In this document: piece after piece, positions 31,143 through 45,526 of the stretch
Layout of the letters: the number at the start of each line of letters is the position of its first letter
Position numbering within the stretch: the stretch's first letter is position 1
Assembly (NCBI GenBank): GCA_003116975.1
Contig: BGKB01000143.1
Coordinates: forward strand, 124,001 to 188,000
DNA from: Aurantiochytrium sp. KH105
Taxonomy: Eukaryota > Sar > Bigyra > Thraustochytrida > Thraustochytriidae
DNA: 64,000 bases
Reading direction: 5' to 3'
Position numbers and translations under genes: made by a program
Notes under the pieces: model-generated
What the model was told of the DNA's origin: nothing
What the model saw: the letters and a program-made list of their open reading frames with translations, nothing else
Databases searched by the model: none

Positions 31143-34100
31143 TTAAGGAAAGACGAAACGAGGGTTACCCGGCGAGCACGCAGCGTCATTCTCCTCCGCG
31201 GCCACAACCTCGAACTCGTCCATGTCCATGGCAGAGGTCACATACTCGCGGTTCTCCTCCAGCACGGCGCGCTGGTCGTAAGGGACGCTAAGCTCGAGCG
31301 CCTGGGGACCGAGCTCCTGCGCGCTCATCATCGTCTGCGCGGCAGTCTTCATCACGTCCTTCATGTTCTTCTTGAGAAGATCATCCGTCTTGCACGCATC
31401 CTTGAGCTGCTTCATGATGTCATCCGGGAAGCTGCGCGTCTCAGCATCATACTTGGACGCCAAGAACTTGAACACTGCCTCCTGGTACGCGGGGTACTTG
31501 TCGTTGATGACAATCTGCACCTTGCGGATCGGCTCGTCCGCGTTGGCCGCATTCTTCTTCTTGCGCTGCTTCACTTCCTTCTCTGCCTTGACGCGCACGT
31601 TGCGGATCGTGCTGCCCATGTACTCGACGCTACGCACAAATCCAACGTCCGGCTTCTCCACGGTCGGCCACAGCTCCTTGACCACAAAGCTCGACTTGCC
31701 CAAGTAATCGCGCCAAATCTTCTCGCAAAAGTGAGGGCACACCGGGGCCATAATCACAGCCAGCGTCTCCAGGAACTTGCGCACCAGGCCACGGTGCAGA
31801 GGCTGGTTCTGCCGCGCGCACGCGTCACGGTACGCGTCCCGGAACCCGAGAAACTCGTAAAAGCCAGTCTTGACAACGTCGCGGTACCGCATCGCCTCGT
31901 ACGCGACCTGGCACTCCTCCACGGCCAGGTTCATCTGCGCATTGAACGCCCGCTCGAAAAAGTTGTACTCTTCCGCGCTCACGTCACGCATCTCGGCCTG
32001 CGCCTTCTCCGCGAGCACCTCCTCGGCCCAGTCCAGCTCAGTCGTCAGGCGCAGGATCGACTTGTCCGCGACTTCGCACGAAAAGTTCGCGTCATCCAGC
32101 GAGTCACCTGCTGCTGCGAGGGCGAGACGGGTTGCGTCGGCAGTCCAGCCAACAACAATCTTCTTACCGCTCTGCTCGAACGAACGATGCCCGGCCACCG
32201 ACTCTTGGATCGTGAAAAAGTTGCCCTTTGACTTGGACATCTTCTCGTTCTCCACCTGCACAAAACCTGTGTGTCCGTGAAAGCAACCCAAAAAAGCAAT
32301 CGAACAAGGACAAACAATGCATAAACCGTAGCATTTCCCGCTGTCAGTTTTCCTGTCACCATTCGATCTCAACTGATTCCCCACCTCAGCCTCGTCCTTC
32401 CCCTTGACTCGCCTCACGTCTCCCGCGCCGGAGTCTCAAGACGCCCGCACAAACACAAGAATTCAAGTTGTTTGAGCCATTGGAGACACAAAGCGGACGG
32501 ACCACACGGCGTTTGCCGCGACCGCAATGCGTACTATGATGCTCTTTGTCCATCTATGGCAGCCTTTGCAGTAGTGACGCAGGCCAAAAGACCTCACGTC
32601 GCCCACCGCAAAGGGCCATCAAAAGCCCGCGTCCAAAATATCCAGGTGTCAGAAAACCCGACGATCGGATGCTGGCCACCTCCGCCGTCACAGGCGCCAA
32701 CGCCAAAAAGGCGTCAGAAACTGCAACGTAAGATGAAGGTGCATGTCGAGACATTTTCAATCAAGAAAATAGCACGCGCGGATTTGAAAGCAATGCCAGA
32801 ACGCCACTTGCCTCTCTCTCTCTCTCTCTCTCTGCACAACTCTCTCTTCTCGTGACGGCTCTTTTTTCCTTTTCCCTCACGTTTTCTCGTTCCTCTCCTT
32901 TCCTTTCCTCCCTCACGCTGTGAACGTACCGTTGCAATAAAAGGCTTGCGGCCACAGATCCTCACGGTCAGGCCAAATCGCCGCGTGCGTGTACAGCGAC
33001 ATGGTCAAGTGGTTGCGAATCAAGTCACGGCCCGAAACACGCAGGTCCAGCGGGTACCAGTACTCAAAGCTCTCGCGCAGCACCTTGAGCTTGTGCTCCT
33101 CAATACCACAGTCCTCAGGGTACGGGTTACCCAGAAAAATGTAGTCAAAGACAGCAGGCGTGAGCTGCTCAGGCTTGATGCCCAGCGGCGAGCCATTGCC
33201 GCGGTCGCCCGTGTAGTCATCCGCGTCCTTGCGACCCTGCAGCAAGTGGCAAATCGTGTAGTACGCCATGTAAATAGTAGAGTCCGACAGAGACTCAATG
33301 ACGAACTGCTCGTCCCAAGGAACAAGCGTACCCAGGCCAAACGAACGTGAGCACGCCCACTCCTCGAGCCAGTCGAGCGTGTCCATGAAAGCCTTGCGTG
33401 TGCTGTCCGTAAACGTCTCAAAGTTCTTCGGGTCACGAACGTAGTCCTTGACCTTTTCGCGCCACTTCTCCTCGCCGTACTTGAGGAACCACTGGTCCAA
33501 ATGGGCAACAACGCACTCGTCGCCCGAGCGGCTAACAACCTCGCTCTCGGGCTCAAAGTACACGATCGCCTCGCCGTCCTCGCACATCTTGGCCTTGACG
33601 ACATCCTTGGCCTCGCTCACCTTCATACCCTCGACGCCGTCCTCCTTTCCGGCAATCATAATGCCCTCGTAAAAGCCGCGCTTGTACGTCTCGGCCTTGG
33701 CCTCCTTGAGCTTCTTCTCGTCGTGCTGAGATTTGATCTTAAGTTTGAGCACCATCGTCTCTGCAGCGCGATCGCCCAGGCCCGGAATGTTGATCACAGG
33801 GACCAGCTCAAAGGGTGCGACCATTTCCTCCGTCACGCCGTGCTTGGCCCGCAGCTTTTCGTCCGTCTTCCAGTCACGCAGCGCCGCGTAATCGTCCGCC
33901 GAGTCCGAAGGTACCGACGTCACGATACCCGTACCCTTGGTCATGGAGATCGACAGCAGAGGGAGAGCGTATACACGCTCGTACTTGGCCTTGGGCGCCT
34001 TGACGGGCACGCCCACGAGCTCCTTGCCGGAAATCGTGCCGAGCTGCTTCAGCTGACCCTGCGAACCAGGCTCCACAAAGGCATCCTGGTAAGACATGTT

Positions 34101-35168
34101 CCGCGCGGCGCGTGCAGCGCAAATGAGCACCTGACGCGTGCGCTCCGCCGACTTGGGCGTGTGCTGTACGTCAAACTCGTACACGCCGTACTCGCCACTG
34201 GGCAGCACGTAGCAGTTTGTCTGCCCGTACATGGTCTCGGGACGCAGCGTCGCTGCAACCATAAACACATGGCCCTTGGCAACAGACTCGCTCAGCTCCG
34301 GGATGCGCGACGTCACGCTCTCGGGCGCCTCCAGCAGCTGCAGCTTCACCAGCATGTACTCCTGCGGACCAACGTTCTCACCCTTGCTGCGGTCATGATC
34401 GGCGCATGCCTGCTTGTCCAGAGGCGAAAACACCGTCGGCCGGCGTCCAAAGTCGATCTTGCCTGCCTCCTTCAGACGAACGAACTGCCACCGGATAAAG
34501 GCATCGTAGAACGGGTTCAGAGACGTCGTGATGAAAGAGCGCCGCCAGTCCACGCGCGTGCCAAGCAGCTTCAGATCCTGCTCGTACAGGCGGGGGAAGT
34601 AGTCCAACCAGTACAGAGGATCGGCAAACTTGGGGATCTCCTCCTCTGGGACACCGGACATGACCAGAATGTCCCACTGCGTCTTGCTCTTGCCGCCAGT
34701 CTTGGCAGTCAGCTTTGACTTTTTGCCCTTGAACTTGGACACATCGGCGGGTGCAGCCTCGGCATCGGCCTCGGCGGCTGCCGCGGCGTTTTCGTCCTCA
34801 TCGGGCACCACAACGGGCACGCCGTACTTTTCCATCTCAGCCTTGAGCTTGAACGCCGCACTCTGGATCGGCGAGCCCGTCACGTGCAGGCCAAACGGCC
34901 ACACCACGTTGTAGCCTTGCGTCGTCTTGTACCCAGCCGCAAAATCAGCCTTGCACAGCGTGAACGCGTGACCAATGTGGGCGCGCGCATTGCAGTACGG
35001 GTACGGAAAAGAGACCAGGTACTTTTTCTTTTCCGGGTTCACGTCCGCCTCAAAAATCCGGTGCTCCTCCCATTGCGCCTGAATCTCGCTCTCGAGCTTG
35101 CGGACGCGGTCGCGACGAGGGAATGCGCCTGCCGGCGGCACCGCCTCGGCGGCCTCTCCGCTCGACAT
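31143..35168 (-). CDS. LARS1: Leucyl-tRNA synthetase, cytosolic type (two exons)
   Basis: Charges tRNA-Leu with leucine for cytosolic translation. Exon 1 is 35168-32930 and exon 2 is 32266-31143; joined, they give 1120 residues, close to the 1100-1180 usual for eukaryotic/archaeal-type LeuRS. The HIGH motif (AHIGHAFTLCKADF) lies near residue 64 and KMSKSKGNF near residue 755, just after the splice junction. Between them is the large insertion expected to carry the editing domain (for example residues 250-480). The C-terminal part is the anticodon-binding and C-terminal extension. The family sequence NG-x6-EKMSKS is restored exactly (CNG FVQVEN EKMSKS) only when the intron 32929-32267 is removed, which fixes the splice sites. 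The start is the ATG at 35168-35166; the upstream in-frame codons have no ATG. An acidic Ala/Glu/Asp linker occurs at about residues 125-150. It is divergent from selenoprotein H. Confidence 0.96.
32267..32929 (-). other. LeuRS intron (663 nt)
   Basis: The donor is G|GTACGT at 32930/32929 and the acceptor ACACAG|GT at 32267/32266 (minus strand), in phase 1. It holds a (CT)n run at 32812-32832 and an unsupported plus-strand open frame (32472-32855). It separates the catalytic-core exon from the KMSKS-bearing exon. Confidence 0.9.
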
Positions 35169-35650: not shown

Positions 35651-35700
<50 letters not shown>

Positions 35701-35845: not shown

Positions 35846-36436
35846 ATGGAGGGCCTGCGCAGGAGCACGCGCGCAAGGAGGCGGCCCGGCGAGGCCGAGG
35901 CCGAGGCCGAGGCCAAGGCGGAGGCCGCCCAACAGGCCAAAAAGCCCGCTCCCGCGGCCAAGAAAACGACGAAGAAAGCCGAGGAGAAAACGACCAAACC
36001 CAAGAAGGCGGCCTCCACCACCAAGTCCAAGACCAAGACACCCGCCAAGCGCAAGACCCCCGAAGGCGAGTCCGAGGAAAAGCCGGATTCGAAAAAGCTC
36101 GCCAAAGATGATGTCGCGACTGCCGACACGAAACAAGTGGATGCACAGCCCGAGGCAGAGACGGAGGTCTCGGTTGAAGCTTGTAAATCCTGAGGCGTCT
36201 TCAAACGCAGCTTCAAGAAACTGGACGATGCTCTCCGCGAGAGCATGGGCACCAATGCTCCCAAGGTGCTCTACAACCCTCAAGAGGCGCGGCCCCGCAA
36301 GGGGACTTTCGAAGTCACGCTGAACGGCGAAACACTTGTATCCCTCGTTGCCATGCCCCGTCCTTTTAAGCGCCTGCGCGAGCTCGATATCGACGCGCTC
36401 GCCGCAGACATCAAGTCCAAGCTGGAGAAAAACTAG
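35846..36436 (+). CDS. SELENOH: Selenoprotein H, in-frame UGA read as selenocysteine
   Basis: Reading through the TGA at 36191-36193 joins two short frames into one of 196 residues. The frame starts at ATG 35846 (GCGCCATGG context) and ends at TAG 36436. Residues 1-100 are Lys/Ala/Glu-rich with a basic RRSTRARRRPG patch like an AT-hook, suiting nuclear/nucleolar localisation. The C-terminal half matches the SelH thioredoxin-like fold: a C-x2-U redox motif (EACKSUGVF, Sec at residue 116), then KVLYNPQEARPRKGTFEVTL, equivalent to the VNPTKPRRGSFEVTL block of animal SelH, then a helical end (DIDALAADIKSKLEKN). SelH proteins are redox-active nuclear proteins linked to stress response. The 3' region carries a SECIS-like hairpin, which independently supports Sec. 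The alternative, a roughly 28-nt intron from GTAAAT to GCAG, is implausibly short and would delete the CxxU motif. Confidence 0.9.
36191..36193 (+). other. UGA selenocysteine codon
   Basis: TGA sits in the CKSU position of the SelH CxxU motif. Conserved SelH sequence continues in frame on both sides. Confidence 0.88.
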
Positions 36437-36570
36437 GATTTCATATCAATCCTCACCCCAGCCATTTGATTCCCCCTCACGCCTCTGCCAAGATGAGCGC
36501 GACTCTTCACTTTAAGTGAGAGGGAGAGGGAGAGAGAGGGAAAGTCCGCTAAAAGTGCAAGCAAGCAGAC

Positions 36571-36660
36571 TCATGACGTGCGCGCTCGAGAAAGAGATTC
36601 CCAATAAGCCCAACATCTTTTCAATAGAGGAGGAAAGAGGGCCTCGGGCGTGCATCGAAC
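36571..36660 (+). promoter_or_regulatory. SECIS element in SelH 3' UTR
   Basis: About 140 nt after the stop, ATGAC at 36573-36577 faces TCGAA at 36655-36659 and can form the non-Watson-Crick G.A/A.G quartet (G75.A58, A76.G57, last two digits of position). Directly above it 13 consecutive pairs form between 36578-36590 (GTGCGCGCTCGAG) and 36643-36655 (CTCGGGCGTGCAT), including three G-U pairs. An unpaired AAA follows at 36591-36593, the conserved apical A motif. The apical part can form a small extra helix (AGAT/ATCT, 36595-36598 with 36615-36618), as in type 2 SECIS. It is odd in that the apical region is about 52 nt, larger than usual. SBP2-type proteins and EFSec would bind it to recode UGA. 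Confidence 0.8.
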
Positions 36661-36822
36661 AGCTCGCGTGCTGACCGTGAAATGGCACATGAGCCGTCAT
36701 TGTTGGGTTTTCTATTTTCAGTTTCTTGAACCCCGCGATGCGGCGCCATCATATCAGTCGCACTTCTTGCCTGCAGCACTAAAGGCCTACTGATCCCCCC
36801 TTTCCCTATTCCCCCTCACCAA

Positions 36823-36828
36823 AATAAA
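36823..36828 (+). terminator. Poly(A) signal AATAAA for SelH
   Basis: AATAAA about 165 nt downstream of the SECIS and about 390 nt past the SelH stop. It is the first such hexamer on this strand. Confidence 0.45.
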
Positions 36829-37046
36829 AGTACGTTCTTGAAATTCAAATTGCAAGGTTTTCTCGAAATGGAAAGTGGTGTCTCCCAACTTTGTGAGTTA
36901 GAACGGAAACACAAAAACGACACGCAAAAAACAAACAAAAGTGTATCCAAGGCGACCGTGAAAATCTCGTCAAGAACACTGCACGTCAATGCTTTGAAAA
37001 AGTGAATCAAAAGAAATACTCTTGTACGTAAAGTATGATCACGGTG

Positions 37047-42676: not shown

Positions 42677-45526
42677 ATGGCGACCGCGGCCTCGGCCGCA
42701 GGCGCTGTGCGGCGGCTGCGCGAGCGCGCAAAAGAGCAAGAGCGCGAGTCGCGAAGAGCCATGCTCGAGACAGAATCAGACTATGGTGAAGACACTGCGA
42801 CAGTCGTCGAGCTCAGCAAATACAAAGACGAGGACAACTACGACAACGAATACATGAAGCAATACATTCGATTTGCGGCAAGGTGCGATGATCTGGTTCG
42901 CAGTGACTCCTTCAATGGTTTCATCATATTCATCATCACGCTGGCGGGGCTCATCGTCGGACTCCAGACCTATCCAAAATTTGAGTCTGACACTCGCATC
43001 AACGGGGCCGATACCTTTGTTCTCGCGATTTTTGCTGCCGAGGTCGTGCTCAAGGTCGTTGCCGAGGGAGGTGCCCCTTGGCGCTATTTCACCGGCAAAG
43101 AAAAAGGCTGGAATATTTTCGATCTTCTCATCGTTTTTCTCTCGCTCCCCTTTTGGGGATCAACATTTGGCGGAAACTCGGTCAAGCTTTTGCGTCTCAC
43201 GCGCCTAATGCGTGTCATGAAGCTTGTGAAAAAGATCCCTCAGCTCGAGGTCATCATTATGGGTCTCATCGGTGGTCTGCGCTCCATCGTCTACATTCTT
43301 GCGCTTCTCTTGCTCGTCTTTTATGTGTATGCCATCCTTGGGTTTTACATGTTTGGCGAAAACGATCAATTTCATTTCGGCTCGGTGCCCACAAGCATCA
43401 TCACGCTCTTTCGCATGGCCACGCTCGAGGACTGGACCGATGTAGTATACACGCAATATTTTGGTTGCTCCAGCGAGATGTTTGACTCTTATGCGCAGAC
43501 AAGCGGGTACTTTGGGGACTGCCCCGAAACCTCAGAGTCCGACATGCGGCCCTATCAAGGCATCACCATCGCCTATTTTTTGTCTTTTATCATTGTTTCC
43601 GCGCTCGTCATGTTAAGTCTCTTTGTTGGTGCTGTGACGATGAGCATGACAAAGTCCATGGCCGACATGAAATTCGAAAAGGAAACGCAAGAGCGTCTGC
43701 GTCGAAAGGAAAGGGCAAAACGCAGGGCCGAAAAGCACCATTCGCAAAATACAGAATCCAAGCTCAGACTCAGCGAATCAGATGCAGAATCCTCAAAGAG
43801 TAGCGAGCTTGAAGGTCCAGTTCTACAAAAGCACTTTCACACTGAAAATGTACTACAATCAAGTGGATCAGGCCGCACCGAAGCCTCCAAGCCATATGGC
43901 GCAGGCAGTGCCACCGTCGCCAAGCTTTTCCAAAGCAGCACTCAAAGTGGCCAAGCCAAGAGCAAATTCAGACCGGCAGCGATTTTGCCATTATTGCCCG
44001 AAGACGAAGCTGGTTCGGCACTGAGTAACACGGCTATAGCGCCAATACCTGGTGCAATCAACGACATGGGGGTTACATACTCAAAAGCCGAAAAGGCTAA
44101 GCTTGAAAACGTCATTAGCTTCTTGCACAAAGAAACGCAGCCAGCGCCAAAAGGCCGTTTCCAGAAAATTGCAAGGGGCGCCGTCGATGCAATCAAGTCG
44201 GGCCGACGTACAACCCTCTTGTGGAACCCCTTTGCCCCCCCCGTCCCGTGCAGGGAAGAAACGGAGCGCGTACGCGAGGCCTTCAAAAACGCCTGGGAGG
44301 GCGTCGACTTGCTCGAAATACTCGAGGAGGATGTCGAGGCGCATTACAAAACGCGCTTCCAACGCAAGTACACCGCGCTTTCCAATGTAAGTAGGCATAT
44401 TAGCGAGAGCTCGTGGTTTGCGAATTCAGTGACAGTCACGATTATTATCGCCTCACTGCTCGAAGGCTTCCAAACAGAGGAGTTCACAAAGACTGGCAGA
44501 ATTTACCAAATCTTCACGACGATCGACTACATTGTCGTCTGCATCTTCTTTACAGAGATCATCCTTAAGACGATCGCGGAACGCTTTCATCCGTGGCGAT
44601 ACTTTATTCGCCACGGTCGAGTGCTCGGCTGGAACCTCTTCGATTACTGTGTGGTGATTGGCAGTTTATTGCCAGGCCAAGGAAGTCTTATTCGCTTACT
44701 GCGCCTTTTGCGCCTCATGCGCGTGCTCAAACTCGTCAAGGCCCTGCCTGCGTTGCAGGTCATCATTGTAGCTCTCATTGGCGGTCTCACCTCGATCTCC
44801 TACATTGGCGTGATTCTTTTTCTCGTGTTTTACGTCTTTGCCATCCTTGGCATGATCCTCTTCCAGGAATCGGATCCCTGGCACTTTGGCTCCTTGCATA
44901 CCTCACTCTTCAGCCTCATGCGCATGGCAACTCTCGATGACTGGTCCGATATCATGTACGTAAACATGTACGGCTGTGACAAGTATGGATATGATGGTAT
45001 CGAAAGTATGTGCACGGAGCCATATGCCTTTTACATCGTGGCTGCCATCTACTTTGTCTTCTTCGTGCTCGTTGGCGCGCTCGTACTTATGACGCTTTTC
45101 ATCGGTGTAGTCACCACCTCCATGGAGGAGGCCACAGAAGCGCAAGGGAAGCAGCAAGAGTTCAACAACAAGGTCCAGGCGCTACGGGAACGTCATGACA
45201 TCAGCGAAAGCTCCATCAAAGCCTACCAGCGTGTCTTTGACATGCTCGATCTTGATGGGAGCGGCACAATCGAAGAGGAGGAGCTACGATTTGGGCTCAA
45301 GTCGATCGGACGCTGTCCCGCCAAGGAAGACCTTGATCGAATGATCAAACTCGTTGACGAGGATAAGTCTGGCGAAATTGACTTTATCGAATTCTGCAAG
45401 CTCCTCATGCTCATTTCCGAGGCAGGTGCAGGCGGTTCTATGCTCTTCAATAAGGATCCCACTCGGTCACGACCGTCCATTCAAAAGAAGTTTGGTTCAA
45501 TTCTTGGCCGCACTCTCTCCAGATGA
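42677..45526 (+). CDS. Two-domain (2x6TM) voltage-gated cation channel with EF hands
   Basis: An intact 949-residue frame starting at ATG 42677 (ACCATGG). Repeat I: S1 80-99, S2 112-130, S3 145-162, S4 168-186 with regularly spaced Arg/Lys (RLTRLMRVMKLVKK), S5 203-226, pore loop with filter TLEDWTD at 249-255, S6 297-322. Repeat II begins near residue 578, with S4 (RLLRLLRLMRVLKLVK) at about 670-688, filter TLDDWSD near 751-757 and S6 to about 820. The roughly 255-residue link is disordered and charged. Two canonical EF hands follow S6: DLDGSGTIEEEE (about 857-868) and DEDKSGEIDFIE (about 894-905). Two such chains would dimerise into a pseudo-tetrameric pore in the plasma or an internal membrane. 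The four predicted acidic side chains per repeat pair point to calcium. It differs from plant TPC1, whose EF hands lie between the repeats. Possible role: calcium entry and flagellar or action-potential signalling. Confidence 0.9.
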   Translation: MATAASAAGAVRRLRERAKEQERESRRAMLETESDYGEDTATVVELSKYKDEDNYDNEYMKQYIRFAARCDDLVRSDSFNGFIIFIITLAGLIVGLQTYPKFESDTRINGADTFVLAIFAAEVVLKVVAEGGAPWRYFTGKEKGWNIFDLLIVFLSLPFWGSTFGGNSVKLLRLTRLMRVMKLVKKIPQLEVIIMGLIGGLRSIVYILALLLLVFYVYAILGFYMFGENDQFHFGSVPTSIITLFRMATLEDWTDVVYTQYFGCSSEMFDSYAQTSGYFGDCPETSESDMRPYQGITIAYFLSFIIVSALVMLSLFVGAVTMSMTKSMADMKFEKETQERLRRKERAKRRAEKHHSQNTESKLRLSESDAESSKSSELEGPVLQKHFHTENVLQSSGSGRTEASKPYGAGSATVAKLFQSSTQSGQAKSKFRPAAILPLLPEDEAGSALSNTAIAPIPGAINDMGVTYSKAEKAKLENVISFLHKETQPAPKGRFQKIARGAVDAIKSGRRTTLLWNPFAPPVPCREETERVREAFKNAWEGVDLLEILEEDVEAHYKTRFQRKYTALSNVSRHISESSWFANSVTVTIIIASLLEGFQTEEFTKTGRIYQIFTTIDYIVVCIFFTEIILKTIAERFHPWRYFIRHGRVLGWNLFDYCVVIGSLLPGQGSLIRLLRLLRLMRVLKLVKALPALQVIIVALIGGLTSISYIGVILFLVFYVFAILGMILFQESDPWHFGSLHTSLFSLMRMATLDDWSDIMYVNMYGCDKYGYDGIESMCTEPYAFYIVAAIYFVFFVLVGALVLMTLFIGVVTTSMEEATEAQGKQQEFNNKVQALRERHDISESSIKAYQRVFDMLDLDGSGTIEEEELRFGLKSIGRCPAKEDLDRMIKLVDEDKSGEIDFIEFCKLLMLISEAGAGGSMLFNKDPTRSRPSIQKKFGSILGRTLSR

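Follow-up and report, generated by a model that had tools for sequence, protein, structure and literature searches.

A frame that looks like a truncated gene in the 64,000-nucleotide stretch of DNA analysed here (the window) is very probably a functional selenoprotein H (SelH) gene of a labyrinthulomycete (thraustochytrid-type) protist, in which an in-frame UGA would be read as selenocysteine (Sec); judged from the sequence, we put the probability of this reading at roughly 0.9. The apparently truncated gene is almost certainly complete, because a SECIS element lies just 3′ of it and the genome carries the Sec machinery. The strongest evidence is this SECIS in the predicted 3′ UTR, which the gene has in common with three other selenoprotein genes and which was absent from the preliminary description of the locus.

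Translation of the open reading frames of the window gives a single 196-codon frame, opened by ATG, closed by TAG (36434–36436) and broken solely by the TGA at codon 116, which leaves 115 residues before it and 80 after it, or 196 in all if the TGA specifies one residue (Table 1). The preliminary description had already joined two adjacent frames into one 196-residue protein by read-through of this TGA, and had drawn attention to the motif CKSU and the block KVLYNPQEARPRKGTFEVTL; the frame is confirmed, the TGA is present in both haplotypes, and motif and block are both there as quoted. The product would be a basic-tailed oxidoreductase of the Rdx family with CKSU as its active site. Animal SelH is described in PMC8985259 as a nucleolar redox protein; the protein here may likewise be nuclear or nucleolar, as its basic N-terminus suggests, and the N-terminal tail may be what localises it there.

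Table 1. Features of the putative SelH locus, in coordinates of the window
Feature	Position	Strand	Detail or basis
Putative SelH coding sequence, 196 residues including one Sec, intron not required	35846..36436	+	Frame; both haplotypes
N-terminal tail, low-complexity, Lys/Ala/Glu-rich, starting MEGLRRSTRARRRPG	35846..36157	+	Translation; carries all 5 residue differences between haplotypes
Rdx (SelW/T/H) domain, residues 105–196	36158..36433	+	Pfam PF10262; TIGR02174
CxxU redox motif, TGT AAA TCC TGA = Cys-Lys-Ser-Sec (CKSU)	36182..36193	+	Sequence
Predicted Sec codon, UGA	36191..36193	+	Both haplotypes
SECIS	36573..36658	+	Quartet ATGA 36573–36576; C 36577; helix II 5′ arm 36578–36590
SECIS, loop and 3′ side		+	Apical loop 36591–36642, starting AAA; 3′ arm 36643–36655; C 36656; GA 36657–36658
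Poly(A)-signal-like string AAAATAAAA, 3′ of the SECIS	36821..36829	+	Pattern only

The profile match to the Rdx/SelWTH family spans the TGA. Pfam Rdx (PF10262) scores 24.1 bits against the domain alone, above its cut-off of 22.6, and 21.8 bits, just below that cut-off, against the whole protein including the low-complexity tail, so that the profile search suggested in the preliminary description did return an Rdx match above the Pfam cut-off for the domain part of the read-through protein; NCBIfam TIGR02174 (SelT/SelW/SelH) matches the domain with E 1.7e-7 and 31.4 bits, below its cut-off of 34.2. A BLAST comparison with an uncurated human SelH sequence aligned 55 residues across the TGA, of which 40% are identical, at 40.0 bits with composition adjustment switched off; 999 of 1000 shuffles also gave a match, the best of them at 23.1 bits. 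Searches of the PDB with phmmer, using the whole protein and the domain alone, returned no credible relative, and none was confirmed for the Rdx domain in viral and genomic contig collections. A single-sequence AlphaFold model, examined for a thioredoxin-like fold, was of low confidence (pLDDT 62.7), with SelW-family chains solely in the weak part of its match list, and neither it nor the PDB search added to the assignment.

The genome (76.0 Mb in 367 contigs) holds the gene twice, on the contig of the window (C143) and on C77, where the protein is 97% identical and the TGA is kept; since the second copy carries the same TGA, this codon is not a single-read error. Because nearly all the genes searched occur in pairs (the exception is one Rdx match, on C44, which is single), the paired copies are most simply two haplotypes. 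Between them, the gene differs before the TGA by 9 substitutions in 345 coding bases, 5 of them residue-changing, and from the TGA to the stop by 2 in 246, both synonymous, so that the part beyond the TGA shows no sign of decay; in the sequence 5′ of the start, 58 differences fall in 498 aligned bases. About 150 bases 5′ of the start lies an AGCA tetranucleotide repeat (12 copies, window 35651–35698), of which the other haplotype has a shorter version with interruptions, and short tandem repeats are numerous in the window generally (93 rows). The neighbouring frames include a class I tRNA synthetase upstream (32916–35168, minus strand; tRNA-synt_1, also a Met-type model) and, at 42677–45523 on the plus strand, an ion-channel frame with EF hands.

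The SECIS begins 136 nt after the TAG and reads ATGA-C-13 bp-AAA...-13 bp-C-GA, with AA 14 nt after the ATGA and an apical loop of 52 nt, so that NTGA, helix, unpaired AA and GA are all present. Folding of the region downstream of the gene pointed to a long helix with this signature; the overall folding energy of 36560–36800 is unremarkable (z −1.48; matched by 17 of 200 shuffles). A first, stricter hairpin scan, built for small apical parts, found no element in the 3′ UTR of the window and three weak ones in haplotype 2; it missed the SelH SECIS because of the long apical loop. When the scan was loosened, both strands of the window yielded one match scoring at least 12, at 36573, and 3 + 1 scoring at least 9. 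The Rfam model SECIS_1 matched neither the window nor the SelH 3′ UTR, and it matched nothing among the 133 genomic candidates scored, out of 925 picked up at first look. Between haplotypes the arms differ at 0 of 34 bases and the apical loop at 3 of 52. The mRNA presumably extends to 36658, which would place the element in the 3′ UTR.

The same geometry lies 3′ of the TGA-containing genes for SelT, glutathione peroxidase (GPx) and thioredoxin reductase, in both haplotypes, and at none of the other loci (66 scanned). The elements downstream of SelT (C70/C181; CTSU) and GPx (C24/C13; TTUG) match that of SelH in a scan that allowed any base before the TGA, and the thioredoxin reductase (C5/C21) ends SGC-UGA-G-stop (GCUG). 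We fixed a rule after seeing SelH, SelT and GPx, thioredoxin reductase not being used to make it: [AG]TGAC, then a 13-bp helix in which at least 11 positions pair, followed immediately by AA, a loop of 20–60 and N-GA. Because the geometry was first noticed in SelH, the three genes behind the rule cannot count as independent of it; thioredoxin reductase alone can, and there too the C after the quartet is demanded by the rule. Run over both strands of loci L001–L063 (460,436 bases), it matched SelH, SelT, GPx and thioredoxin reductase; 10 of the 66 loci matched, at 8 places (four genes in two haplotypes, SelH being represented twice), and both strands of the window held a single place. No element of this type was found within about 1.5 kb of flank at the GPx, Rdx, MsrA and TGR-like loci without a TGA, and 12 Mb of first-order random sequence, scanned on one strand, gave 0 matches with at least 12 pairs and 3 with at least 11. 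An extra match with 12 pairs appeared at an MsrA locus in both haplotypes (L040/L041) when any base was allowed on either side of the TGA; it lies inside the apparent coding frame of a neighbouring gene, and we take it as chance.

The arms of helix II were aligned alone because MAFFT alignment of the whole elements failed to line up the 3′ arms; the alignment has seven entries because SelH haplotype 2, whose arms are identical to those of the window, was left out. Of the 91 cells that these seven different arm pairs make up, 98.9% are paired, and 10 of the 13 pairs have changed on both sides, a number reached by 18 of 500 shuffles; the covariation score was reached by 0 of 500. Since the arms were picked for pairing, this test measures sequence diversity under a common structure and is not an independent discovery of the helix. 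The helix of the two thioredoxin reductase haplotypes includes a swap of A-U for U-A, and in one place the pairing is broken.

It is very unlikely that the UGA is a genuine stop, leaving a 115-residue Lys-rich protein and a decaying relic downstream. UGA serves as an ordinary stop elsewhere in this genome, where it ends EFSec, SelD, SepSecS and one of two MsrA pairs (a tally that left out rows whose longest frame was antisense), and EFSec, with the same final residues in both haplotypes, terminates at TGA in one and at TAA in the other. Here, however, the TGA stands exactly where CxxU has its Sec, the half beyond it carries the two synonymous substitutions against the nine upstream, and the SECIS that lies 3′ has the geometry seen at three other selenoprotein genes. 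Splicing is just as improbable an escape. Introns do exist in this genome (read by eye, the GPx frame breaks at GTAAGT and resumes about 150 bases later), and a donor-like GTAAAT lies at 36183, eight bases before the TGA, so an intron that removes the UGA from the mature mRNA, the danger which the preliminary description itself had named, could be imagined. But all 46 frame-keeping GT-AG introns of at least 30 nt within the coding frame that would take out the TGA start no later than the Cys codon of CKSU, the same holding for all 44 whose donors lie within 150 nt, and all of them therefore destroy the motif. Both introns from the GTAAAT would remove CKSU through GTFEV or more, which is the conserved half, and an intron leaves the SECIS unexplained. 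As far as the sequence can tell, then, no intron of this kind spares CKSU.

The gene might instead encode a selenoprotein of another Rdx subfamily (SelW-like or lineage-specific) that has gained a basic tail and is not a SelH orthologue, and the curated models PF10262 and TIGR02174 cover SelW, SelT and SelH jointly; we nevertheless regard this as improbable, if less remote than a stop or an intron. A human SelW sequence, likewise uncurated, scores 16.5 bits where the human SelH sequence scores 40.0, so that by these two sequences the protein fits SelH better than SelW. The block PR(K/R)G(T/S)FEVTL also occurs in that human SelH sequence, and separate SelT and SelW-like genes (named by eye) are found in the same genome. 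The identification as SelH, made in the preliminary description, is supported; orthology to SelH rather than to a sister Rdx group is our inference from the human sequence, from blocks that stand in the expected order and at the expected distances, and from the basic N-terminal tail. The SelW-like stretch, on C49 and C90, was seen without its CxxC/CxxU part, which may sit in an upstream exon.

In eukaryotes, Sec is decoded by SBP2 bound to the SECIS and by EFSec, with Sec-tRNA formed via PSTK, SepSecS and selenophosphate. This genome encodes tRNA-Sec with anticodon TCA (UCA), SepSecS (E 7.7e-121), EFSec (C184/C85; best PDB match 5izk, 6.2e-133; domains euk_SelB_III and eEFSec_4th), SBP2 (sole PDB match at an E threshold of 0.001 the SBP2 structure 7zjw_B, 7.3e-23) and SelD (8.9e-81), the last as the C-terminal part of a fusion with Pyr_redox_2 (C78, C170) that has Cys at the usual Sec/Cys site, CGGCGAK (seen in L021). 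PSTK is probably encoded as well: the candidate, a 292-residue open reading frame, matches TIGR03575 with E 5.5e-18, below the cut-off, and KTI12 also matches. The preliminary description had supposed that the organism keeps the whole Sec pathway and that a genome lacking the machinery would speak against its reading. The tRNA-Sec, SelD, SBP2 and EFSec that it proposed to look for were all found, together with SepSecS, and only for PSTK does the claim stand as probable. The top selB matches, on C119/C7, are not taken to be EFSec because the frame in L013 reads by eye as a mitochondrial-type EF-Tu, and a third tRNA-Sec-like match is the tRNA-Ser of a mitochondrial contig (C366).

With these parts, the putative SelH mRNA would be decoded as follows: SBP2 would bind the AUGA/GA core of the SECIS and recruit EFSec carrying Sec-tRNA(UCA), the latter made by PSTK and SepSecS with selenophosphate from the SelD fusion, and the ribosome would then read the UGA at codon 116 as Sec. 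Expression of the gene, insertion of Sec and redox activity of the product are what this scheme predicts.

In its first 10 kb the mitochondrial contig carries 10 tRNAs and three frames that look by eye like cob, nad6 and nad5. TTA is absent inside the conserved parts of these three frames, each of which meets TTA at the expected end of its protein, and among the tRNAs of this stretch tRNA-Leu CAA and TAG are present and TAA was not found; another frame in this stretch has several TTA in its last third, and is either shorter than it looks or an exception to TTA as a stop. TTA thus seems to be a stop on this contig, as in the Thraustochytrium mitochondrial code (NCBI table 23), which suggests a labyrinthulomycete, probably a thraustochytrid.

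Thraustochytrids are used to make DHA. In the titles and abstract openings of the open-licence literature searched, no selenoprotein of a thraustochytrid or other labyrinthulomycete was described; for the stramenopile Hyphochytrium, PMC5795050 reports a selenocysteine tRNA. What emerges here is a Sec system that looks complete, and at least four selenoprotein genes (SelH, SelT, GPx and thioredoxin reductase), in a probable thraustochytrid. The novelty is modest, namely a known selenoprotein in a lineage for which none was found described in that literature and a uniform SECIS across four genes, but a precise SECIS rule could locate the remaining selenoproteins of the lineage and correct mis-annotated genes.

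The elements found here share with eukaryotic SECIS generally the AUGA quartet, helix II, the unpaired AA and the GA. They depart from the SECISearch rule printed in 2007, which is a search rule and not a strict definition: in the passages of PMC2375036 that give it, AA follows NTGA by 10–13 nt and GA follows AA by 15–39 nt, whereas in all four genes here AA lies at 14 nt and GA 39–64 nt after AA (64 in SelH; by our count). The same passages record that Ostreococcus, Chlamydomonas and one Dictyostelium gene have long mini-stems, and they give a Dictyostelium query (ATGATT, 10–12 nt, AAA) that allows up to 14 nt and so gives a precedent for the AA spacing. Since both features are precedented, the SECIS here falls inside the range of forms already known, as a variant and not as a new kind; that a single form serves four genes and is missed by the Rfam model is less expected. 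From these four genes of one genome we tentatively suggest, at somewhat less than even odds, that labyrinthulomycetes use one rigid SECIS (RUGAC, a 13-bp helix II, AA at 14 nt and a variable, sometimes very large loop) for their whole selenoproteome; because it lies outside the printed SECISearch spacing and the Rfam model, the selenoproteins of the lineage would have been systematically overlooked, and labyrinthulomycete SBP2 should then show matching changes in its RNA-binding domain.

SelH is known from animals (SELENOH, SelH/BthD) and from Ostreococcus and other algae, according to passages of PMC2375036 and PMC7539508. As measured against the uncurated human SelH sequence, the protein described here has its CxxU at the same place in the Rdx domain and likewise a basic N-terminus, and like SelH it would have its SECIS in the 3′ UTR; it differs in the tail, which at about 100 residues is much longer, and in its C-terminal end, where the BLAST alignment stops at residue 159 and the last 37 residues are unaligned. 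The SelD of this genome resembles the NADH-dehydrogenase-like/SelD fusions of protists and bacteria presented in PMC4561486: Pyr_redox_2 lies N-terminal to SelD in both, CGGCGAK in place of the Sec site is common to them, and no notable difference from the fusions described there was seen.
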